64,000 nt of DNA, taken from the NCBI GenBank assembly GCA_905147135.1, contig LR990059.1:16949001-17013000 (forward strand), in the 5' to 3' direction. A program made the position numbers and the translations under genes. Below the pieces are notes generated by a model that ran no database searches, had not been told where the DNA came from, and saw only the letters and a list, made by a program, of their open reading frames with translations. The stretch's first letter is position 1. Every line of letters begins with the position of its first letter. Origin of the DNA: Blastobasis lacticolella (Eukaryota > Arthropoda > Insecta > Lepidoptera > Blastobasidae). Positions 1 through 56,594 of this stretch are shown here, piece by piece.

Positions 1-1057
1 ATGCGGGCAGCGCAATGCGGGCGTTACGGCCGCGGCGTGCGTCCGTCTATGCCTCAATAGGTCCCCTCGAACAGCGAACGCTCGCCCGCACTCCGGGCAG
101 GCGTGCGACCCACCCCCGCCCGCCGCCTCGTGCCGTCTCTGGTGCCGGGCTAAGGCCGCCCGCCAGCGGAACGCGCGCCCGCAAACCGGGCAGCGGTGCG
201 ATCGCGGCCCGCCGTGCGACTGCTCGTGGATATACAGCCCGGCGCGACTGCGGAATTTCGCCCCGCACACGGTACAGGCGTGCGGTCGCTCCGCAGAGTG
301 CACGACCTCGTGCTGTTTCAGCAGCCCGCGGGAACCGAACGCGCGCCCGCACTCGATGCAGGTGTGCTCGCGGACTGTCGAGTGGGCGTGCTTCACGTGG
401 TAGAAGTAGCTCGAGGAGGCCGTGTAGACTTTATGGCAGACGGGGCACGAGCGCTCGCGGCGGTGTCTTTTGGCAGGTGGTGCTGGCTCCCCGGATACTG
501 TTACTGCCCCGTCGGGCACGGCCGCCGCGTCGCGCGAATCCTCTATCGCCTCAAACACAGACTCCGGTATGGGGTCGAACTCAGCGTCGCTGTGGTCCGA
601 AAACTCGTCAACGGTCGCCAGCACACTCGGCTCGGCGTCGGTCGCGACATCGCTCTCCGGCAGTCGCGGCGGCGGCCGCCCGTCGAGCGTCGGCTTCGCG
701 CTCACCTCGGTGTTCTCGTTTTCGTCCTTCATCACTTTCTTTTTGGCTCGCTTCGATGGCAGTTTCACTGCCGGGGGCGGGGGCGCGGCCTCCGTTCCTT
801 CGGGAGGGGGCGGGGGCTCGGCCTCCGCTCCTTCGAGAGAGGGCGGAGCCGCGGCCTCCGCTCCTTCGAGATGGGGCGGAGCCGCGGCCTCCCCTCCATC
901 GAGAGGAGGCGTGGGCGAGTCCGGCACCGGCGAGGGCGGCTGGTACTGCACGGCGTGCTGCGACATGTGCACCACGAAGTCCTTCTGGTCGACGTAGGTG
1001 TGGCACTCCTCGCAGTGGAAGAGGAGGTGCGAGGCCGCGGGCGCGGGCGGCGACGAC
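1..1057 (-). CDS. zinc-finger cassette 4 (partial, runs off left edge)
   Basis: Open reading frame from the acceptor TGTTGCAG at 1058-1065 to the window edge, with one leading base G before TCG. It begins with a C2H2-like finger (FHCEECHTYVD..., about 973-1020). Next come a Pro/Ala/Glu-rich repeat and an acidic linker of roughly 160 residues. At least five regular fingers follow (RSCPVC, HTCIEC, HACTVC, HRCPVC, HACPEC starts), and the start of a sixth is cut by the edge. Its organisation of one isolated finger, a linker, then an array resembles cassette 1. No start codon is expected because it is a downstream exon. An in-frame TGA lies just upstream at 1075-1077, the stop of cassette 3. Confidence 0.8.
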
Positions 1058-4000
1058 CTGCAACAGAGCGCGGCTCAGCGATGCGAGGCGACGTGGGCGG
1101 CGAGCGCGGGCCGCCGGCGGAACGCGGCCGGGCAGCGCGGGCACGGCAGCGGGGCGCCGTGGCGGCGGCCGTGCGAGCGCAGCGCCGCCGCCGACTTCGT
1201 GGCCAGCCCGCAGCGCTCGCACACGAACTCGCGCCGCTCGGCGTGCGAGCGCATGTGGTCTTCGAGATGCGCGAGGCGGGCGAACGTCGTCTCGCATTGC
1301 GGGCATGTGTGCGGCCGGGCGTGGAGGTGCGTGTCGCGGATGTGCCGCGCGAGGTTCCCCGCCTCGCCGAACGCCCGCTCGCAGTGGGGGCACGCGTGCC
1401 GTTTGGTGTGCGCGGTGCGGTGCCGCCGCCAGCCGCGCGCCGCCACCCGCCGCCCGCAATCGGGACACGACACGTACCGCTTACCGTCCGGAGCGACGGC
1501 CGGAGTGTCCGCCGCGGCATCCGCCGGCGGTCTGGAAAGGCAGGGCTCGGTCACTTGGTTCGGGCGGGTGTAGAATCAACCACCCCAGCGTCAGTTAACA
1601 AATAGGAGATTATTCAACAGTCCGAAATTTACAAAACTTCGCGCTCTCTCATAAGTTCACTGGTACGGTCCGAGGGCGTACGTGTGCTGAGCATTGTCCG
1701 GCTCGGGCGCGGGGGCGGGGGCGGGCGCGGGCGCGGGCGGGCCGTGGTGCCGGCGATGGTGGTGGGCCAGCGCGGCGCGCAGCCGGAACGCGGCCGGGCA
1801 GAGCGCGCAGGCGTGCGGGCGCGGCGGGGCGGGCGACGCGGGCGCGGCGGGCGCGGGGGCCTCGTGGCGGCGGCGGTGGCGCGCCAGGGCCGCCCGCAGC
1901 CGGAAGGCGGCCGGGCAGTGCGGGCAGCGGTGCGGGCGGGCCGCGTCGTGCGTCCGCCGGTGGGCGTGCAGCGCGCCGCTCTGCGCGAACCGGCGGCCGC
2001 ACTGCGGGCACTCGAAGGGCCGCTCGCCGGTGTGCGTGCGGCGGTGCTGGCGCAGGTTCTGCGCGTTGGCGAAGGTGCCGCCGCAGTCGGGGCAGCCCAC
2101 GCGGCGGCGGCGCTCGTGCGTCTCGGCGAGGTGCCGCCGCAGCCCGCCCGGCGCGCGGAACTGCTTCCCGCACACGTGGCACACGCACGGCCGCTCCCCG
2201 GTGTGGATGCGCCGGTGCACCAGGTACGTGTGCGGGGAGCTCAGCCGCTTCCCGCAGGCGGCGCAGGCGTAGCGCAGCCGGCCGGCGGCGTCGCGGCAGC
2301 GCGCCAGCGACAGCTCGCGCCGCGCGGCCGGGTCGAGGCGGTCGCGGCGCATGTTGTCGCAGGTGAGGTCGTCGTAGCCGTCGGCGGCGGCGGCGGCCGA
2401 GCCCGCCGTGTCCGACGAGGCCGAGTCCGAGTCGGAGTCGGAGGCGAGTCGCGGGCCGTGGGCGGCGAGCAGGTGGTCGCGGAACCCGACGAGCGCGGCG
2501 TAGAAGGCGGCGTAGGCGGTCGCCGGGGCTGCCGCCGCCGCGAGCGGCCGGTCGTCCTCGTCGGAGGGCTCGTCGCTGCAACAATAAACCGCCCTTTACC
2601 GGCCGCTCCTGTGGCGTCGCGCGTGGTCTTTCAGGTGGGAGAGCTTCCGGAAGCGCTTCGGGCAGACCTCGCAGCTGTAGTTCCGCACGTCGAGGTGCAT
2701 GTGCAGGTGCGCGGCAAGGGCCTGGCCGGAGTGGAGGGCCTTGTCGCAGTAGCGGCAGCGGTGCGTCCCGGGCGCGGGCTCGGCGGCGTGCCGGCGAGCG
2801 TGCGCGGCACGCGCGGCGCGGTCGGGGAAGGCCTCGCCGCACGCGCCGCAGTGGAACCGCAGCCGGCCCTCGTGCGCCTGCCGCACGTGCTTCGCGAGGG
2901 ACTTCTGCCACTGGTACACCTTGCCGCAGCGGTCGCAGGGGAACCTCCGCGGGGCGGCGGCGGCGTCGTGCGTCGCCAGGTGCTCCGTCGCGTGGTACAC
3001 GTTCGAGAACGTCTTCTCGCAGACGGGGCAGGCGACCGGCTTCCGCTTGATGTTGTTCGGGCCGAGTTTTGTTTTGCCGCGGTTCCCGCCGGGCTCCGGG
3101 TGGGCGGCCCCGATGTGCTCCTTCAACTCGTTCTCGTCGACGGCTGTGTGGCCGCACGCGCGACACTTTACCCCGCCCCCCGCCTCCCCGCCCTCCACGT
3201 GCATCTCCTGCAGGTGCCAAGCGAAGGCGGCCTTGGAGTGGTACTCCTGATCGCAGCAGGTGACCCCGCTCGCGACGCAGACGTCGACGTGCCGGCTGAG
3301 ATGGCTCAGCAGCCGAGTCGGGGATGAGAATACGCTGCTGCAGAACGGACACGACAGATGGGGCAACTCTTCTTTGACCTCTTTAGCTATGGAGACCTCG
3401 TCGACATCCTCCAGGACCAGTTGCTCCTCAACGGTTATGTTGTCTTCCACGAATTGTTTAAGCGAGCCACTCATCAGATCAGCCTCATGTGTAGATGTCA
3501 AATGCCCGGCCATCGCGCCCGCCGTCGCCGCCGCCGGCTGCTCCGGACATTTCTGACAGACGAACTGCAAATCGGAACTCTCCCCGTCTATGCCAAGCGC
3601 GGACAAGTAATCGTTCAGAATACGCACAATCAATACGGTTCCTGACCTGTAATTTACAAATTTTACGATGTCGGGTGGGCCAAGAAGGAGGTTAAGGCAA
3701 TGATTTACGCCCGGTTCCTGTAGTCGGCGAATTGGCGTCAGTATTGGAGCAGTCATTCTTTTACTAACATTGAATCAACAAAATTATAGCCAATCACGGA
3801 TTAATTGGTTTGACTTATTTCTTAATTTCATTGGCTCATTAAAAGATCGTTGAGTACAAGAACTGGGGGTTACAAAAGTACATTACTTACTCTTTGTCAT
3901 TTGTATTTTCTAAACTTTGGTTTTCTTCTATGCTGGCTGGATTTTGTTCCTGAAATTAAATGAGATGCTTTAAAGTAGGTTAAGGTAAATTCATACTTGG

Positions 4001-7000
4001 AATTGAATGAATTTAACTTAGAAACTGACAATAAATTATCGGCGCAGGTTAAGAGAGCCACTTGAACAAACATTTCATTCCAAACAACAAGATCTCGTAG
4101 ATTGTCCGGAATATTCATATGCCCTTCAACTAACCCCAACACATTTAAACAGCTGTCCAATATCTTATTCATAATTTTTATAACACTAAAAGGTCAACAA
4201 AGGATTGTAACATTTGCGTAGTTGCTGGTACAGCAATGTGTTCTGGGGTTTTAGCGGTGGGCAATGCATTGTTGACACCCCTGCACGGGTTGTAGCATAG
4301 CTCGCGTCGCGGGAAAGCCTTCGTTTTCGTCTCCGTCTCTCAATACTAGATGAAAAAGATAACAGTATGTATGTCGCGTCATTTCTCGCTTATCTCGCGC
4401 AAGGGCACACTTGTACTAGCCGTACAGGTGTTGCTAATGTCCATTGCCAACGGGACCACTTTCTATCTCAGCGCACGACGACGCCAGCAAGGCGCAATCC
4501 AGCGCCAGAACCTGACCGGCCAGGACACAGCCTGGCCGAGAAGACGCCCGGGCACGGGCTTAAACCTATAGGCCCGCACCTGCCTCCGCAGATAAGGAGC
4601 AGAAGACCTGTGTGTGTATGAAGTGGCCCGCTTGTGTATTTTTTTTTTGAATACCACTAAAGTGGCAAACAAGCTTGCGGCCGGCCTGATGGTAAGCAGC
4701 CACCGCAGCCTATGGACGTTTGCAATACCAGGGGCATCACCCACGCGTTGCCGACCCCGTAAAAACCTTTTAACCCCTTTCTTGAAGAACTCCATGTTGG
4801 ACTCACCAGGGAAAACATCTCCAGGTAGTTCATACCACAACCTTAGTGTGCGTGGGAGAAAGTTCCTTTGGAACCGCAAAGAAAAGAAACAAAAAAAGCC
4901 CAGCGACCATCACCATTAACCACTTCCCTACACATACCCGTATCTTCTGCTCGAACCGCCACTGTGCTTCCCGCAGCGCGTGGTCGGCTCGCGGCGCGGC
5001 CGCCGCCACCTCGTGCCACGCCAGCAGCGCGTGCGCGCACTGGTAGCACATCGCCACCGGCAGAGTGTCTAGGGGACTCACCTGGGGATTGTTGGCACAT
5101 TTATTATACGCCATCACTGTCCTTCTGCAGGGAAAAGGCCTACCTAGCTATAGCTACCTAGAGATGTCGTCGTTGGCCGTATGGTGGCCGGTGGAGTAGA
5201 ATTGCAACAACCCCTTACAGTACCCCAACCTTCTTACTTGGCCAGGATGTGAGTGCATTTATTGTTTATTTTTTTGTGATTATTTCTTCGTTTGCCATCT
5301 TTTTAGTCCAACTGGAAACAGCGTTTAGGAATAAAAAAAGGTAATGTTTGGCCTTAATTTATTGGTTTTCATAAAAATAAGGTATATGTAATTATTTATC
5401 CCAAGTTTATTTATGTATAAGTAAATATTACAGGTTATACATCTAAAAATGTATTTCTTTTCTTTATTTTGTATTATATATATTGGTATTAATAATTAAT
5501 AATTTCTGTGTTAGCACGTCGTTCGCGTAGTGCGCGCATCGAGCTCTATTATGGGTCAGTCTGAAAACCAGCGCTGTGTTTGGCTGCTGCCATTCATAGC
5601 ATTAAGCTGAGGCTGGTCCAATTTGGTCCGAGGACGCATCGCCCTGCTTTCCTAATATGTATTTATTATGTTAGTTTTAAGTATTTGAATGTGTTATTGG
5701 ACCAAATAAAGTTACGTCTATGTCTATGTCTATGTCTAGTGGGTGTCGTACAAAGCGACTAATGTTTTCGACGCAAAAAATCTAGTCTCCGTAGGCTGGA
5801 CGATGGGCAACAGCATTTTCCATTGTTATATTTGTGATACTGCGATCTCCAATACGCCTGCCAAGCGTGGAGATTATGGAATTATCTCCCCTCTCCTGGG
5901 AGAGGCTCTCCTAAGTCCTGCACTCCTCATTAGCGTATCTAGGGCTATTTTCTAGGGGGGGGCCTGGCCCCCTGGCCGATGAAGCTGAGTCAATCGCCAA
6001 TGTACAACCAGTGAGCACCCCATCCTGGGGTGGGCACGCCCCCCCCCTTCCTACGCCTATGGCAGTACTGCATATACCAATGATTCATTTCTGAGTTATG
6101 TACGATAGTTGAACACTAACCGACGCCCTTACGGTGAGGGAAAATATCGTGATGAAACTTCAACTTTCAGGCAACTGAATGTGTCCATGACAGTGTCTCC
6201 ACTGTAATTATCTGATCTGCCAAACTGCCAAATTCTGCATCATGGTGAAGGCGCACCCCGGGCCCTGGCACACCAGAGCACAAACGGGACATGTTAATTA
6301 TCATGATGATGACATTTATAACCATGGTTTTGGCAATTTTATTTATTTTATTATTTGGCATTTGCCTGTTCGCTGACAAAGCAGCATTTTATAGAGGTTG
6401 CCCTTCCATCAGGCGGCCGCTGACCATAAGTAAGTCACATTAGTCACCTGTGAATAGGGATGGTGACTGGATCAAATTCTTGTTAGTTTGTCAGTTAGAT
6501 TATAAAAAAAATTGTTTTTTTTTTTTATCAAATTAATAAAAAATTACAAAGATAAAGTGTATCAAAGTTTCAGAGTGGGGTCTCATGATGTCACGCAAGT
6601 GTTTAATTTCTTGTATAAGTACAAAAGAAAGAATACGTGTCCAATATTTTTGACAGTCTACCATCCGACAAAAATATTTTGTTCCAGTCATTATCATAGG
6701 TTGGTGTTACGTTGTATTCTACTCAACACAGTCCAACTAAATACCTACCTAAACTAAACCATCTGTGATAACAGAAATAAAATGCAATTCTGTTATCAAT
6801 GCTTTGTTAGGTCTGAGTAAGCAAACAAATGTTAGTCTGTCTGACAATGTCATTTAATGACACTCTGAACACACCTCAATAATCTGTAATGAGCAGCCTT
6901 CAAGAATAGCTTTTCAATAATTTTCATAAATTGCGTGCTCTAAGGACTCAAACATTTTTTTTTATTTATAGTTGATTGTTCACAAGATAAAACATACATG

Positions 7001-8035
7001 TTTTGTTACAAAAGTTTAAGACAACAGGCATTATTATAATCTTTTGACTATATAGGGCTATTGTTGAAGTGGTATGGATTAGCCATACAACTATGTATTA
7101 CTGTCATCATTCATTGCCTCGGAACAAATGAAGTCATGTTAAAATTTACTTTTTACTACCATTTTAACTTACAGTCATAAAGGATGCTATTCATAATTTA
7201 AAAACAAGAAGGATTGTTAAAAAACTTACTTGTATGGGTAAATATTTGTTAACCTTCTCAGCAAGGTTACTCTGCAGCCCCTCACCCTCAAATATGGGAA
7301 TGAGGAATTCCGTAACATTAGCACATGTACGGCAAACATTTGAGAAGTCCTCCACATCTGTGTAATAATTTATATAAAACAAGATCAGTTTAGAAACATC
7401 TATTTTATTGTACTAATAAAATAAAGTTGATTGCCACATCTGTCTGAATTTAGTTCCATTATCTTCTACAAACCATTCAACGGATTTTGATGTGGTTTTC
7501 ACCGTCACTTAGAGAATTTCTTCTGGAAGGTTTATATGTATAATACATGCCTATTATTATAGAGTAACTCAGAGAAAACCCTTGTAAAGCTGGGGCGGTT
7601 CGCTAGTTTTCTAATAAGATATAATTTTTTTATATTAAGAAAAAGCTATAAAAATTTAAAATAATTGTAAATGTTACTTTAAATCACAATTTTACTGTTT
7701 AGATTCTATAGACAAGTATGCTTGATCCAGTGAGTTGCATTTGAGTGCAATAGTTGAGCTGAGAGTATTATTGGTGACAAATATTTGTGATCTAAAGATG
7801 TATGAATGAGTAAAATTATTAATATATTTGTACTAATTTTATACAGCTGTGTGACTATGAAAATAATTTCCTAATAATTATCATGATAGTACCTACAAAG
7901 TAAAAACACTTAATACTTACTTTCGAGGTTAGTAGGCCCTAAGGCAGGTGTTTCAATAAACTTTTGAGACACATCAGCAGAAATGTTGTCAGAAGGTGTT
8001 ACACATATAAATATTTGCTCCGTTTCAGTATTCAT
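1..8035 (-). CDS. ZAD-type C2H2 zinc-finger gene with tandem alternative zinc-finger cassettes (gene span, 3' end off the window)
   Basis: This is the gene-level entry. Shared exons are 7921-8035, 7230-7357, 4938-5081 and 3891-3949. Candidate terminal cassettes are 2596-3646, 1657-2575, 1075-1531 and 1-1057. Exons 2 and 3 together encode a ZAD domain (two CxxC pairs, CRTC and CYQC), a zinc-coordinating dimerisation module of arthropod transcription factors. Exon 4 is a short acidic linker ending in phase 2 (GA before GTAAGT). Every cassette acceptor leaves exactly one leading base, so each can be joined in frame. Predicted products are 498, 454 and 300 residues for the first three cassettes; the fourth is incomplete. 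The expected role is a nuclear, sequence-specific DNA-binding protein. That the cassettes are alternative 3' ends is my inference; exon order and phase are read directly. Confidence 0.8.
785..905 (-). repeat. 33-36 bp coding minisatellite in cassette 4
   Basis: About four imperfect units of a GC-rich sequence encode, on the minus strand, a repeated peptide of the type L-E-G-A-E-A-A-A-P-P. The repeat lies in the linker between the isolated first finger and the main array. Such repeats change length by whole units and keep the frame. Confidence 0.7.
1075..1531 (-). CDS. zinc-finger cassette 3 (terminal exon, five C2H2 fingers)
   Basis: The exon begins after the acceptor CCTTTCCAG (1532-1540), with leading base A completing a Glu codon with the GA of exon 4. 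It ends at TGA 1075-1077. Five C2H2 fingers are visible, starting VSCPDC, HACPHC, HTCPQC, FVCERC and LPCPRC, with little N-terminal linker. An ATG-initiated frame from 1554 also exists, but it starts inside the polypyrimidine/acceptor region and is probably not the real start. The spliced isoform would be about 300 residues. Only 17 bases separate its stop from the first base of cassette 4. Confidence 0.75.
1657..2575 (-). CDS. zinc-finger cassette 2 (terminal exon, six C2H2 fingers)
   Basis: The exon begins after the acceptor TATTGTTGCAG, with leading base C giving Asp with exon 4. It has an acidic Ser/Asp-rich and Ala-rich N-terminal part of about 90 residues, then six fingers. Two are classical Kruppel-type, joined by TGERP linkers (HTGERPCVC, HTGERPFEC). 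The last two are near-duplicates (CPAAFRLRAALA twice). A Pro-Ala run follows, then stop TGA at 1657-1659. The spliced isoform would be about 454 residues. The phase-2 sequence CA before GTGAAC at the extreme end could also act as a donor to cassette 3 about 125 bases away, so a serial cassette 2 to cassette 3 isoform is possible. Confidence 0.78.
2596..3646 (-). CDS. zinc-finger cassette 1 (terminal exon, eight to nine C2H2 fingers)
   Basis: The acceptor is TTTGTAAATTACAG, with leading base G completing Glu with exon 4. The reading frame stays open upstream to an ATG at 3756, but the splice site and phase favour the shorter exon. An isolated finger-like motif (FVCQKC...HLTSTH) and an acidic linker come first. 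Further C2H2 motifs start LSCPFC, VTCCDQ (irregular), VKCRAC, VACPVC, FPCDRC, FHCGAC, HRCRYC and YSCEVC. Stop TAA is at 2596-2598. The isoform with exons 1-4 is 1,497 nt, about 498 residues. Only 20 bases separate the stop from the cassette 2 exon. Confidence 0.82.
3891..3949 (-). CDS. exon 4 of the ZAD zinc-finger gene (shared linker)
   Basis: A 59-nt exon between acceptor TTTAATTTCAG and donor GTAAGT. It enters in phase 0 from exon 3 and encodes an Asn/Glu-rich stretch (EQNPASIEENQS...NDK). It ends with two bases, GA, which need one further base. All four downstream cassettes supply exactly one base (G, C, A, G), giving Glu or Asp each time. This donor is the presumed branching point for alternative cassette choice. 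Confidence 0.78.
3997..4185 (-). other. exon-like open frame of unknown status in intron 3
   Basis: The minus frame encodes a protein-like stretch (NKILDSCLNVLGLVEGHMN...). It is bounded by a possible acceptor TTTTAG and donor GTATGA, with one leading and two trailing bases, so it is phase-symmetric (189 nt). It would fit a phase-2 upstream donor, but exon 3 ends in phase 0, so it cannot simply be added to the model above. The frame also runs on to a stop at 3897. I do not recognise the sequence. It may be an alternative exon, a decayed exon or chance. Confidence 0.25.
4455..4880 (-). mobile_element. LINE 3'-terminal fragment, family A
   Basis: The minus strand encodes the C-terminus of a non-LTR reverse transcriptase (RNFLPRTLRLWYELPGDVFP, ending in NVHRLR). 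The same ending is seen in the LINE at 54796-56628 as FLARTIRMWNELPATVFP...DVHRRR. A poly(A) tail is seen as a T run at about 4640-4649. Related 3' ends occur at 20750-20945 and twice at 42285-42594. Upstream of it (4230-4450) is other repeat DNA that recurs near 37100-37210. Confidence 0.7.
4938..5081 (-). CDS. exon 3 of the ZAD zinc-finger gene (second half of ZAD)
   Basis: 144 nt (48 codons, phase 0 at both ends) between acceptor CAATCCCCAG and donor GTATGTG. It carries the second zinc-binding pair of the ZAD domain (LPVAMCYQCAHALL) and the long helix after it (ALREAQWRFEQKIR). The domain is split across exons 2 and 3 by a 2.1-kb intron holding repeats. Confidence 0.85.
5735..5945 (+). repeat. 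interspersed repeat family B copy
   Basis: Contains GTGTCGTACAA.GCGACTAATG, a GGGCAACAGCATTTTCCATTG block, CTGCCAAGCGTGGAGATTATGG and GGGAGAG motifs. The same ordered blocks recur at 56640-56915 (plus) and 58436-58672 (minus), so this is a dispersed element, probably the 3' end of a LINE. Confidence 0.7.
6095..6310 (+). repeat. tRNA-related SINE family C, partial copy
   Basis: Shares blocks with copies at 17285-17580, 21815-22140 and 32395-32755: GAACACTAACCGA, GGAAAA.ATCGTGATGAAAC, CAGGCAACTGAATGTGT and CACTGTAATTA.CTGATCTGCC, followed by GGACCCCGGGCCCT-like sequence. The tRNA-like head is missing here. Confidence 0.6.
7230..7357 (-). CDS. exon 2 of the ZAD zinc-finger gene (first half of ZAD)
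   Basis: 128 nt between acceptor TTACACAG and donor GTAAGTTTT. The two leading bases AT complete the A left by exon 1 (Asn), and it ends in phase 0. It encodes the first ZAD half with the diagnostic CRTC pair (NVCRTCANVTEFLIPIFEGE) and ends AEKVNKYLPIQ. Confidence 0.85.
7395..7612. repeat. dispersed repeat remnant
   Basis: Contains ATTCAACGGATTTTGATG.GGTTTTCACC and ends AAAGCTGGGGCGGTTCGCTAGTTTT, a pattern typical of non-autonomous insect repeats (possibly Helitron-like). Assignment is by pattern only. Confidence 0.4.
7921..8035 (-). CDS. exon 1 of the ZAD zinc-finger gene
   Basis: Starts at ATG 8033-8035 and ends in phase 1 before GTAAGT. It encodes MNTETEQIFICVTPSDNISA and on to TNLE. It has no upstream in-frame continuation worth preferring, and the sequence above it (8040-8130) is a plausible short promoter/5' UTR. 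The next gene on the same strand ends near 8429, about 400 bases upstream. Confidence 0.78.
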
Positions 8036-8547: not shown

Positions 8548-11500
8548 CTGAAACAATCGTGAAAAATAAAAGAGCAAACAGCACCTCGAGACAAGTAGAA
8601 ATTTTCTATAAAAAATGGACGGAGATTTCTATATTTATTTAAACTAAACTTTAACCGTGGTCCCACTGCTATGCCCCACTAGTGGTTTTACAGGTAACAC
8701 ATAGATAGCCTTATCCCCGTTGGAATAGAATACATCTGTTGATATTCTAGAGGCCATGCATTGTCAAAAAAGCTTCATTCCACATTTTGCTATTTTATCT
8801 TGACTAATTGCAACCCAACGGATTTAGCGGATGTCCACGGACGACGGTAATCACTTACCATCATCAGGTGAACCGCATTTGCTTTCCTCTGAAAAATTAT
8901 TATTATTTCCGGTTTGCCCCGAGCGGCCGGAACCCCCGATACGCCACTGTTAGAATCAATTCATTGGTACCTACAGGTTCCCGATTGGGATTTGAAATAG
9001 ATCGCTTGCAAGAACGCTCCCAACATTCGGCCACAAGTCGTTTATATAATACCCAACTACTTACCAGCACCAACTTGATGAGGTAAACAGCGAACGTGAG
9101 GAAGGATATGGTCATGAGAGCGCTCTCCGCCGACGGGAACTCCACGTGCTGGCCGCGGGCCGTTGCGGAGCGCCCGCGCCGCTTGGGGCCGTCGTCGTCG
9201 GGGAATGCTGAATCTATTCGGTCTTCTGTTAGAGCAAAATGAGCTTACTGCACTGTATTGTACCAGTATACGGGATCTACCATAAGGGTCGGATGTACAC
9301 AGATAAGAATAAGATAGGCATGTATAGTCATGGGAGTAGAGGGGACACCAGACGGTAGGACTCTATTAAGCATGAGGCGCTGTCCCAATTGGCAACGGTC
9401 GTACGGCCGTAGTCGTGCGACGGGCGGTTTTGAGGTCTGCTATTGGTCAGGCGACGTCCATCGTATGACCATGGTCGCACGACCGTTGCCAATTAGGACA
9501 GCGCCTGAGGAGTCCCTGGATGGGTACCACTACCCCCTTATCTATTTTTCCCGCCAAGCAACAATGCTTTCACTGCTGTGTTCTAGTTTGAAAGATAAGG
9601 CATGAAACATATCATTTTCAGATTAGACAAAGAGGACGAGAAAAAGTAGGAAAGTTGACCCTGTCAGAATCCGGGTCAGATTGCTAGGGTGATGATGACT
9701 ACTTGACAAAGCAAAATCCAAAATTCGGAGCCGGTCGTCCGAAGAATAGTTATAGGTACTATCAAGCTGAATAAATGCTCGCTTGTTCATATTTCTTACT
9801 TAAAACTTTATTTTTAAATTATGACTGACTGAATTGTGACCTACCTATGTTAGCCATTATAGTGTCCCTGAGATCTTCCAAATATTGCAATTTCCCTTTA
9901 AAACTTTTTCTTGTATTTTGCGATATAGTGTCCGTGACTATTCGCAAGAATTTAATCAAATTCTTCATTGTATCAGCGTTTTTATCCTTTGTGACTGATT
10001 CCTCAGTACCTTCAGTATTATTTTTAATTTTTTCTGTACTTTCCTTTCTTTCAAAATCGTGCGGGGAACCTGCCGTGGCATCATCAGCATATTTTTGGGT
10101 TTCGTCTTTTTTGTACGGATTTTGTTGTTTCATAATAATCACATTTTGTTTATTTTTCATTAATTCACGGTTTCTCTCATTATTTTTCTTTTCTTCTTGA
10201 GAATTATTTTCCGTCATACTGTTAATGGGTGAATATTTACTATATTCGTCTGAATGAGAATTTTCTTCTACAATATTAGTTTTAGGGAAAGGTTTTACTT
10301 TTACGGTAGTTCGAATAGGTATCTCTTCAGTGCTGGTAGCAAGAACATGTTTGATAATTTCGACATCTTCATTCATATAAACTCCTGCCAACTCCCTGTC
10401 CACTTTGTCATGCACCGTATTAATGTTTATTTTTGGTGTTGTTGATGTGTCTGAGAGGAACGTCGTAGTTCCAGTTAGATTTGTTGACTTTTCTTTCATC
10501 TTGAAGATCTTAAATATTTCCTCTTGAACACCACTATGATTTAGTCGTTTTACTATGCCATGGTTATGTGTTTTATATACAGTATATTCGGGATTAGATA
10601 TTCTTTCTTCATTCTCTTGCATTTTAATATGAGGTATTTTGTTCGGGGCATTGGAAGCCTGTCGTTGATCGTTGCCTTTTACCTCATCCTGTAATATTTC
10701 TTTGATCATTACCTCTTCCGGATTAAGCGTATCAATCTTTTTAAAGGGTACCAAATTCTGTTCAAAAGGTTTAATTTCACCAATATTAGTTATTTTCTTA
10801 TTGCTGTTAGGATCCATTTCATCATTTTCAAGTTCAGTCTTCAATTTATTAAAGTTCTTAACGTTATTGGCAGTAGTATGTGCATAATTATTTGATTCAC
10901 TTATAATATTTACGTGTTTAATATCAATCACATCCTTGGATTCGTACACCTCGCCGTTGGGTTTATTTTTGTTATTTTCTTTATCAGTTAATGTGAAATC
11001 ATTGTTTATGTTGCTTTGAAAGGATGTCTTTTTAAGTGTTGGGCTTGTGCTCGTCGCTATCACGGGGTAAAGTGGTCTCTTTTCCGTTTTTGGATGTATG
11101 TCGGTATTTAGAAAAATTGAATTTGTTCGATTGTTCGTATTTAACTTCCATTTATAATCTTTGTTCAGTGCTTTCATTGTTTCTGGTTCAGGCGATATAT
11201 TTACAGTTAATTGTTTATTAACGTTTTTGAAACTATTAAATTGTTGGTCATCCGTTAATTTAACTGTAGAAAAGATGTCCTCATCTTGAGCATATTCTAG
11301 ATCTGATAAATCAACAACTTCTATGGGTTTACCTTTGTAAATATCCTCCGCTTGGATTCTCAAAGGTCTGAAAGTAGTTGATCCCTGATGCTTGTACGTA
11401 GTTACAAATTCCTTTGTTATATCTTCCACATTTTTGTCAAAACTTACTTTGTTGTCCGATAATTTAGTTTTAATTCTGACATTATCACCTTTCTCCTCTT

Positions 11501-11807
11501 CATCGTGATATGTATCTTCTCTTATAACATAATTTTCTTTGTTTCTATAGATATCATCTGAGAGTCTGTTGGCATAATCCTTAGACGGTTGGAAATTGTT
11601 ATATTTATTCCAACCGTGATCAGGTAGAGAGGTATTAAGGTATATCCTGTTTGCTCCGGTCGTTTTCTCCAAAGTTGTTTGAGTTCTATCGGAGTCCTTA
11701 TGGATGTTCAGGGCAGAGGCTGGTCGCAAGGGCTTGATGTGATACTGCTGCGAGATTTCAACCCATTCGCTGCTCGCTTGGCAGATCAGCAGTAGTAAGG
11801 TCAACAT
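8458..11807 (-). CDS. predicted signal-peptide, single-TM, low-complexity protein (three exons)
   Basis: Exons are 9845-11807, 9065-9225 and 8458-8547, totalling 2,214 nt or about 737 residues, with all phases consistent. The start chosen is the Met at 11807, because it opens a signal peptide (MLTLLLLICQASS); the frame is also open to a Met at 11927. Most of the protein is an Asn/Lys/Asp/Glu-rich, poorly ordered region with several N-x-S/T sites. The end carries a hydrophobic segment (ALMTISFLTFAVYLIKLVLQ) split over the last intron, then a short basic tail. It is likely secreted or membrane-anchored at the cell surface. The fast-evolving look of the long exon suggests a lineage-restricted protein. 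I do not recognise the family. Confidence 0.8.
9065..9225 (-). CDS. exon 2 of the signal-peptide/TM gene
   Basis: 161 nt between acceptor GCTCTAACAG and donor GTAAGT. Two leading bases join the G of exon 1 (Glu). It encodes an acidic patch (SAFPDDDGPKRRGRS) followed by the hydrophobic stretch ALMTISFLTFAVYLIKLVL. Confidence 0.8.
9377..9513. repeat. inverted-repeat element (MITE-like)
   Basis: AGGCGCTGTCCCAATTGGCA at the left and its near-perfect reverse complement at the right end. The arms continue into ACGGTCGT.CG, and about 70 bases lie between them. It sits in intron 1 of the TM gene. Confidence 0.7.
9845..11807 (-). CDS. exon 1 of the signal-peptide/TM gene (long low-complexity exon)
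   Basis: 1,963 nt from ATG 11807 to the donor ATAG/GTAGGT. If the donor is not used, the frame stops 27 bases later at TGA 9819. Splicing to exon 2 adds a conserved-looking hydrophobic C-terminus, which is why the spliced model is preferred. The sequence is rich in Asn, Lys, Asp, Glu, Ser and Thr, and nearly devoid of Cys after the signal peptide. Confidence 0.82.
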
Positions 11808-12097
11808 GTTGCACTGGCGGCAAACGGCCGTCCGCCCGCATGTTGTCTCACATGTGAATCGTACTGTGAAACGTGCTCTGAGCTGTAGATAAACGCTGTT
11901 TGACACAGTTAGGGCAGAGGTGTTCAATCTTTTAGTACTTGTTTATAATTTTATTTTGTAAATTTTCTTCTGAAGTTTCTACAAACCAGCGCCACTCACA
12001 ACGGTAATTGTCAACGCGTAATTTATATCGAGTCTGTTTGTTCTTCTTCTGAATTAAATAGATATAAGCAAATGGCCATGTGGTTGAACCAATGCAG

Positions 12098-19967: not shown

Positions 19968-50317
<30,350 letters not shown>

Positions 50318-54720: not shown

Positions 54721-54795
54721 TAAATTTGAAGATGATTGTTATAAAATACTTTACGTGCTTTTTGGTCTCTCTCCAAAGCTGTTAAGGGGAACTTT

Positions 54796-56594
54796 TGTCG
54801 GACCACCTTTCCACCTTTGCGCAAGCCGGATGACCAATTAGCCCACACAGCAAAGGAGAAAGCCGATCTCTTGGGAAATCTCTTTGCTCATAACTCAACT
54901 CTGGATGATGGGGGAGCTGCACCGCCTACCATCTCACGGTGTGAGGGCATCATGCCCGAGGTTCGTTTCACCCAAAAAATCATAAGACGTGTGCTTCTCT
55001 CCCTAGACATCCGGAAGTCCAGTGGACCTGATGGCATTCCGGCTATTGTTCTCAAAAAGTATGCTCCCGAGTTGTCTCCCGTGTTAATGCGCCTATTCAA
55101 GCTTTCCTACACCTCTGGAATGGTGCCGTCTTCGTGGAAGCTAGCCCTTGTGCATCCGATACCCAAGAAGGGTGATAATTCAGACCCATCAAATTACAGG
55201 CCTATAGCGGTAACCTCCTTGCTCTCTAAGGTGATGGAGCGGGTTATCAATATCCAGCTCCTCGGATACCTAGAGGACCGCCAGCTGATCAGTGACCGTC
55301 AATATGGCTTTCGCCATGGTCGCTCAGCTGGTGACCTTCTCGTGTACCTAACACACCGGTGGGCTGAGGCCGTCGAGAGCAAGGGGGAGGCTCTGGCTGT
55401 CAGTCTTGATATAGCCAAGGCATTTGATCGGGTCTGGCACAGGGCACTGCTAACAAAACTCCCGAAGTACGGTATCCCCGAGGGGCTCTGCAATTGGGTA
55501 TCCAGATTTCTGTCTGGACGGAGCATCCAAGTCGTTGTCGACGGATGCTGCTCCGATACCAAGACCATTAATGCTGGAGTACCCCAAGGTTCAGTGCTAT
55601 CTCCCACGCTGTTTCTTCTGCATATCAATGATATGCTGAATATTCCCAGTATTCACTGCTATGCAGATGACAGTACTGGAGATGCTCGTTATACTGGACG
55701 TGCGAATACCCCTCGTTTCGTGGTGTCGGAAAGCCGAATAAGACTTGTGTCAGAGATTGAACACTCCTTGGAGCAAGTTGCTCACTGGGGCAGACTGAAC
55801 CTGGTGGAATTCAACCCCTCAAAGACACAGGTCTGCGCATTTTCTGCCAAAAAAGATCCTTTTGTCATGGTGCCGCAGTTCCAAGGAACACCCCTTTCCA
55901 TCTCAAATAGTATCGGGATCCTTGGTGTCGACATATCGGATAGCGTGCGATTCCGGAGTCACCTAGAAGGTAAAGCCAAACTGGCTTCGAAAAAGCTTGG
56001 AGTGCTTAACCGGTCCAAGCGATACTTCACCCCAGGGCAGCGCCTGCTGCTGTACAAGGCGCAGGTGCGGCCTCATATGGAGTATTGTTCCCATCTTTGG
56101 GCCGGCGAAACTGCCGACCTGCTTAATCCTCTGGACTCCATACAGAGACGTGCCGCCCGAATTGTCGACGATCCCATACAAACAAGCAAATTAGAACCAC
56201 TGGCTAACCGAAGGGAATTTGGCTCCCTGTGTGTGTTCTACCGGCTGTACAATGGGGAGTGTTCCGAGGAACTTTTCGATTTGGTGCCAACAGCACAATT
56301 CCGCCATCGCACCACCCGCCGTGGGCTGGGTACTCATCCCCACTACGTAGACCCTCTGTTGGTCACCACGCGAAGGTTTGAAAGAACGTTTCTCGCTCGT
56401 ACGATTCGGATGTGGAATGAGCTCCCAGCCACAGTGTTTCCTTTGGACTATGACATGGGATCGTTCAAGAGGTATATTAGAGATCTCTTCAGAAGCGGGC
56501 AACGCATTGGTGACTCCCCTGGTGTTGCTGATGTCCATAGGCGGCGGTGACCACTTTCCATCAGGTGGCCCGCATGCCTGTTTGTCTGCAGGAT

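Follow-up and report, generated by a model that had tools for sequence, protein, structure and literature searches.

The 64,000-nucleotide (nt) stretch of the Blastobasis lacticolella genome analysed here (the window; C20:16949001-17013000) carries a single gene in which one ZAD head faces four alternative C2H2 zinc-finger cassettes, c1 to c4, all matched to it in phase. Judging from the DNA, alternative choice among 3' splice sites very probably yields four isoforms of a transcription factor from this gene, with the acceptors most likely competing in one terminal exon.

The head is assembled from four exons on the minus strand. Exon 1, with its ATG at 8035, occupies 7921..8035 and ends in phase 1 before GTAAGT; exons 2 (7230..7357) and 3 (4938..5081) encode the two halves of the ZAD with its cysteine pairs, CRTC and CYQC, respectively; exon 4 (3891..3949) encodes a linker and ends at the common donor, GA/GTAAGT. 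Joining these exons gave a head of 446 nt, and from the joins we re-derived the phase-2 end of exon 4 that a first-pass annotation of this DNA had proposed. The ZAD named there was confirmed by Pfam: zf-AD matched the joined head with 42.2 bits (E 9.6e-11) against a curated cut-off of 28. It was the sole Pfam domain found in the head, with no BTB domain detected. The ZAD of grauzone matched this head weakly (E 0.3).

Cassettes c1 (2596..3646), c2 (1657..2575) and c3 (1075..1531), all on the minus strand, end in their own stop codons, and c4, on the same strand, runs from 1057 to a stop 152 bases past the window edge (window coordinate -152). The acceptors at 3646, 2575, 1531 and 1057 supply G, C, A and G, respectively, to the phase-2 split codon, as the first-pass annotation had it. 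The shortest of the four alternative introns (3647..3890, minus strand) measures 244 nt, and the others extend to 2576, 1532 and 1058. The c1, c2 and c3 isoforms, whose sizes of 1,497, 1,365 and 903 nt had also been given before, encode 498, 454 and 300 amino acids; each is divisible by three and contains a single terminal stop. The c4 isoform, closed in the left flank, has 551 amino acids and 1,656 nt, again a multiple of three. The gaps from each stop to the next acceptor are 20, 125 and 17 nt, and no ATG precedes the first finger of c3. Pfam detected zf-C2H2 in all four cassettes; by pattern there are seven C2H2 motifs in c1, six distinct ones in c2, five in c3 and six in the part of c4 that lies in the window. 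The c2 array is one finger short of the seven-finger array of its relatives, which we read as a loss of finger 6, and it has a proline/alanine-rich end. The cassettes also hold non-finger segments of their own. An acidic motif of c4, FSDHSD...PESVFEAIEDS, was matched by pattern in four of nine c4-containing records; by eye it is present in the window and, with one change, in Battus.

A stronger argument for this architecture than acceptor scores comes from other species, in which orthologous tails follow an identical head. With the c1 isoform as query (best 10 matches; the 7994 candidates sharing most words were scored), Helicoverpa armigera "isoform X2" matched at 44%, with 99% of the query covered. 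Searching with the Battus ZAD gave 36 proteins, and lepidopteran tails were assigned to c1 to c4 by BLAST class. In Battus philenor, X1, X2, X3 and X4 carry the c4, c1, c2 and c3 tails, respectively, behind an identical head of 145 amino acids, after which they diverge. Tails of c1, c2 and c4 were found in Papilio polytes, Manduca (X3 for c2, X2 for c4) and Anticarsia, and c1 and c2 tails in Galleria and H. armigera (X2 and X3). One head with different tails is therefore present in six other Lepidoptera. Plutella has c2 and c4 tails, apparently from two assemblies, one Mythimna protein has a c3 tail, and H. zea X1 belongs to the c4 class.

The Osmia ZAD, used as a query, returned 126 proteins (120 listed), and the named proteins among them are presumably all from Hymenoptera. 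These word-based searches gave no other order among the matches listed, which is not evidence of absence elsewhere. Hymenopteran records of the same species likewise share a common head and diverge at one point. We compared 38 groups, hand-picked as species with at least two listed records (leaving out Papilio xuthus, which has two fused models), and 32 of them show a clean common head of 139-222 amino acids with a single end point. The remaining six are H. armigera, whose heads show residue differences, Plutella, with its two apparent assemblies, and Nomia, Megalopta, Cephus and Phymastichus, whose heads differ from the first residues onward; in Cephus, 192 amino acids are common to four of the five records, and the fifth has the same junction. 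At the junction, Battus has the residues K, K, K, N and the window E, D, E, E, as follows from a phase-2 split codon with two fixed bases and a variable third. The junction residue is invariant in the other clean-head groups except Ceratina, where K versus R disagrees with the split codon; the record with K has no annotated fingers. In 25 of the 27 clean-head hymenopteran groups, the shared head ends in R.

Isoform-numbered records rest partly on RNA alignments. P0019, which joins the head to c4, comes from a contig of 2188 bases; the gene spans roughly 8 kb here, and this contig is therefore probably an assembled transcript. For P0093, P0010 and P0101, whose tails are hymenopteran, the contigs measure 2169, 2049 and 1803 bases.

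The first-pass annotation had suggested that more cassettes may lie left of position 1. This did not hold: c4 closes at -152, and the 20 kb left of the window contain no further finger by the pattern C-x2-C-x12-H-x3..5-H, which is blind to atypical fingers such as the last one of c4 (C-x4-C), which straddles the window edge. Open reading frames (ORFs) of at least 90 amino acids in the nearer 10 kb of this flank include none resembling a finger array. Therefore, the set of cassettes appears complete with these four. Elsewhere in the window, the same pattern gave a single isolated match at 11,916, taken as chance. The polyadenylation signals AATAAA and ATTAAA are absent between exon 4 (3949) and the window edge (1), and AATAAA occurs just past the c4 stop, at -163, -206 and -266. 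Because no signal separates the cassettes and a cluster follows the last one, the isoforms probably share one 3' end. A non-canonical candidate signal, AGTAAA, lies at 3765.

The acceptors were scored with a hand-made matrix over the AGs from the previous stop (or the donor) to the hand-set start of the conserved part. On this scale, the named acceptors of c2, c3 and c4 are the best of 5, 8 and 2 AGs, respectively, and that of c1 is the third of 14. Among all AGs on the same strand of the window, 23% score as high as the acceptor of exon 3 and 19% as high as that of c4. Docking-selector pairing is the mechanism of Dscam; we looked for such pairing between the shared intron and the 120 nt ahead of each acceptor and rejected it, since shuffled sequences were equally low in 174, 171 and 96 of 200 cases for c2, c3 and c4. 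For c1 the figure was 8 of 200, and this slight excess is not taken as evidence.

We propose that one phase-2 donor is joined to any one of four tandem cassettes, all of which have an acceptor and a stop of their own, most likely by competition of the four acceptors inside one terminal exon. This exon would measure about 3.8 kb, with AATAAA signals past its last cassette only, and the c1, c2 and c3 messages would carry the later cassettes as 3' untranslated regions (UTRs) of about 2.8, 1.8 and 1.2 kb. The switch appears to be compacted here, with the previous stop just 20 and 17 nt ahead of the c2 and c4 acceptors. The DNA sequence that is read would differ from cassette to cassette, and the common ZAD would let the isoforms pair with themselves and with one another, so that four isoforms could form ten pairs. 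The splicing choice would then determine which DNA sites can be bridged. We infer the splicing in B. lacticolella, the shared 3' end, the distinct DNA targets and the ZAD pairing between isoforms in this model.

Several observations weigh against alternative splicing within one terminal exon. A frame-compatible c1 acceptor at 3763, which would add 39 codons to the tail, scores slightly above 3646, and it is 3646 that better fits the length of other c1 proteins ahead of their conserved VCQKC. The c2 acceptor is weak, as 33% of same-strand AGs in the window score as high, and very long 3' UTRs could expose the c1, c2 and c3 messages to decay. The supporting records are mostly automatic annotations, and some of them speak for one long protein or message that runs through several cassettes: nine fused models from eight lepidopteran species (Arctia, Tuta, Danaus, Chilo, Chrysodeixis, Papilio xuthus with two, P. 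machaon and Spodoptera exigua) join two or three cassettes, and four hymenopteran records are fused as well (P0086, P0130, P0144 and P0148), of which P0130, Solenopsis X3, is isoform-numbered. A continuous message of this kind is nevertheless highly unlikely, because each cassette here is closed by a stop, the gaps of 20 and 17 nt are too short for introns, and none of the isoform-numbered lepidopteran records found contains more than one cassette. As far as each of them reaches, the same nine automatic models keep the order c1, c2, c3, c4, which the first-pass annotation had proposed to look for in related Lepidoptera.

The stop at the end of every cassette would also suit four adjacent zinc-finger genes with their own promoters and a ZAD in the first alone, and genes with similar ZADs are usually found in small clusters, according to the accessible part of PMC5509000. 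We regard this arrangement as very improbable: gaps of 20, 125 and 17 nt are too small for a promoter and a first exon, c3 lacks an ATG ahead of its first finger, and every tail class is found on the same head in other species. The tails might instead be separate last exons with their own poly(A) sites, or be trans-spliced, as in mod(mdg4) and lola, which follow the same logic of a common head and variable tails. This is rather unlikely, given that the canonical signals do not separate the cassettes and closely follow c4, and that all tails share one strand and fit into about 4 kb. The most economical account has one donor, four competing acceptors and one 3' end.

The hymenopteran tails bear on the age of the cassette set. 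At a clustering threshold of 0.5, the 66 tails formed five classes (hCK, hFG, hLK, hSS and hWK) and three singles, and Cephus cinctus holds all five classes. This clustering depends on the threshold: 0.35 merges c2 with nearly all hymenopteran tails, 0.45 fuses two hymenopteran classes, and 0.55 and 0.6 split them further. For this reason, orthology was not judged from raw best hits. A common plan underlies the representative arrays, with the spacing H-x4-H in finger 2. MAFFT placed c1 one finger off, and a fixed-register alignment was used instead. The rows are a hand-picked subset of the proteins found; 62 arrays were tried, of which Acrom_P0138 and Cotesia_P0149 were dropped because finger 2 was not found by rule, and c4_Pxut_P0033c4 and hLK_Venturia_P0104 for a wrong register. 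Trees were built from 58 rows including those of the window and from 54 rows without the four long window rows.

Both trees paired c4 with hLK (support 97/100 in the 58-row tree and 98/100 in the 54-row tree) and c2 with hFG (95/93 and 98/94), and the 54-row tree also paired c1 with hWK (97/89) and c3 with hSS (76/50). A single lepidopteran origin of the cassettes was rejected by the approximately unbiased (AU) test with both 58 rows (p 0.0115) and 54 rows (p 0.006). From the cross-order pairs and this rejection, the switch set probably predates the split between Lepidoptera and Hymenoptera, with the four cassette classes probably already separate before it. Profile comparison gave its highest scores to c2-hFG (519), c4-hLK (370) and c1-hWK (263, next 258). 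Predicted DNA-contact residues are helix positions -1, 2, 3 and 6; at these, c2 agrees most with hFG, in 11/28 (other classes 4-7), c3 with hSS, in 11/23 (others 2-5), and c4 with hLK, in 12/24, and c1 resembles none of the classes closely (at most 4/20). By contact residues, the assignment of the tree is the best of 60 for c2 to c4 and the second of 120 with c1 included.

Other results count against so early a separation or against single pairs. The c3+hSS pair is poorly supported, at 76/50, in the 54-row tree (the 58-row topology test allows it, p 0.51), and the profile of c3 scores higher with hFG (331) than with hSS (323). With window rows included, the support for c1+hWK is 73/92, while c1+hCK is just as acceptable (p 0.57), with a likelihood slightly above that of c1+hWK. 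The c4 tails sit inside hLK rather than beside it, and their contact identity with hLK (12/24) is barely above that with hSS (11/24) and hCK (10/24). At non-contact finger positions, hSS comes closest to c2 (18/42 versus 16/42 for hFG). Moreover, the tested clades were named after sight of the first tree.

Part of this material suits an independent duplication of the tails in Lepidoptera and Hymenoptera, with an ancient head only: the branches between the orders are long, and a single clade of c2 and c4 was not rejected (p 0.097). The fused models also suggest that cassette order differs between the orders. P0130 and P0144 have hCK followed by hLK, and P0086 and P0148 have hSS followed by hFG; if this is genomic order, hSS precedes hFG where c2 precedes c3 in Lepidoptera, and the order is therefore not conserved across orders. 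Rejection of the all-lepidopteran clade in both tests and the three well-supported cross-order pairs of the 54-row tree make independent duplication improbable. We consider it somewhat likely that a single ZAD gene with four or more alternative cassettes, all differing in DNA specificity, already existed in the ancestor that Lepidoptera and Hymenoptera share, and that both orders kept the switch. A cassette set ancestral to both orders would be more than 300 million years old.

The logic of a common head and alternative tails is known; the ZAD head and the compact C2H2 layout differ from lola and mod(mdg4), to which the first-pass annotation had likened the gene. That likeness holds for the annotated proteins of other species, which show one head and several alternative tails. 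It does not extend to the layout of mod(mdg4), given the short gaps and poly(A) signals only after c4. Lola, fruitless and broad have a BTB head and alternative zinc-finger tails, usually with their own 3' ends, and we know of no gene of this type with a ZAD head. KRAB/SCAN zinc-finger genes as a rule have one array per gene. A tail-specific poly(A) site, as in genes of the lola and mod(mdg4) type, was not seen here, judged by signals rather than mapped 3' ends. As described in the available portion of PMC4667647, mod(mdg4) has a common N-terminal domain and many alternative zinc-binding C-termini, conserved across Diptera and Lepidoptera, and lola also has one head with alternative zinc-finger tails; both resemble the present gene in this respect. 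However, mod(mdg4) combines BTB with FLYWCH and has trans-spliced tails on both strands, whereas the present gene combines a ZAD with C2H2 arrays and carries its four tails on a single strand in a stretch of about 4 kb.

In the ZAD-C2H2 gene cucoid and its 27 Drosophila relatives, the 3' end varies between isoforms (PMC6783274, PMC9810180). In the parts of these papers available to us, however, the short cucoid isoforms are truncations that lack the last fingers of one array, whereas the isoforms of the present gene have different arrays. Cucoid is also described there as found in Diptera, fleas and Lepidoptera only, which sets it apart from the present gene, widespread in Hymenoptera. The vertebrate KRAB/SCAN genes, like the present gene, combine an interaction domain with a finger array, and in the accessible text of PMC5509000 their alternative splicing affects the KRAB part. 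We found no description of the present gene among the titles and abstract openings listed from the literature searched, which excluded most subscription papers.

Other features of the region were recorded. Across the genome scanned (577 Mb, 45 contigs), there are at least 79 zf-AD matches, some of them close together (e.g. C22, C28). Upstream of the ZAD gene and on the same strand, an ORF of 707 amino acids and low complexity occupies 9819-11942 (minus). Long ORFs at 23836-31444 (plus), with a polymerase and a third, envelope-like frame, presumably belong to a BEL/Pao-type long terminal repeat retroelement, judged by motifs, and an ORF of 601 amino acids at 54745-56550 (plus) presumably encodes a non-long-terminal-repeat reverse transcriptase. 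The left flank holds a tandem repeat with a unit of about 54-57 bases by eye (GGTCCTAGTTGAAAATACG...), about 2.2-2.5 kb past the window edge (L009, about 7497-7787).

Isoforms of this gene appear in public annotation under unrelated names, of which there are more than a dozen; P0001, P0017, P0024, P0096 and others are named after unrelated vertebrate proteins (ZNF84, KRAB/SCAN 8-like, ZBTB49, PRDM9). Such scattered names may be why the gene has not been recognised as one thing. The ZADs of Pita, ZIPIC and Zw5 homodimerise, according to the part of PMC5509000 available to us. Because the identical ZAD stands on different arrays, the isoforms of the present gene could pair freely. Taken together, this ZAD gene would have retained a number of alternative finger arrays behind a single head instead of spreading as duplicate genes, and if ZAD pairing mixes the isoforms, it would offer a ready test of combinatorial DNA bridging.

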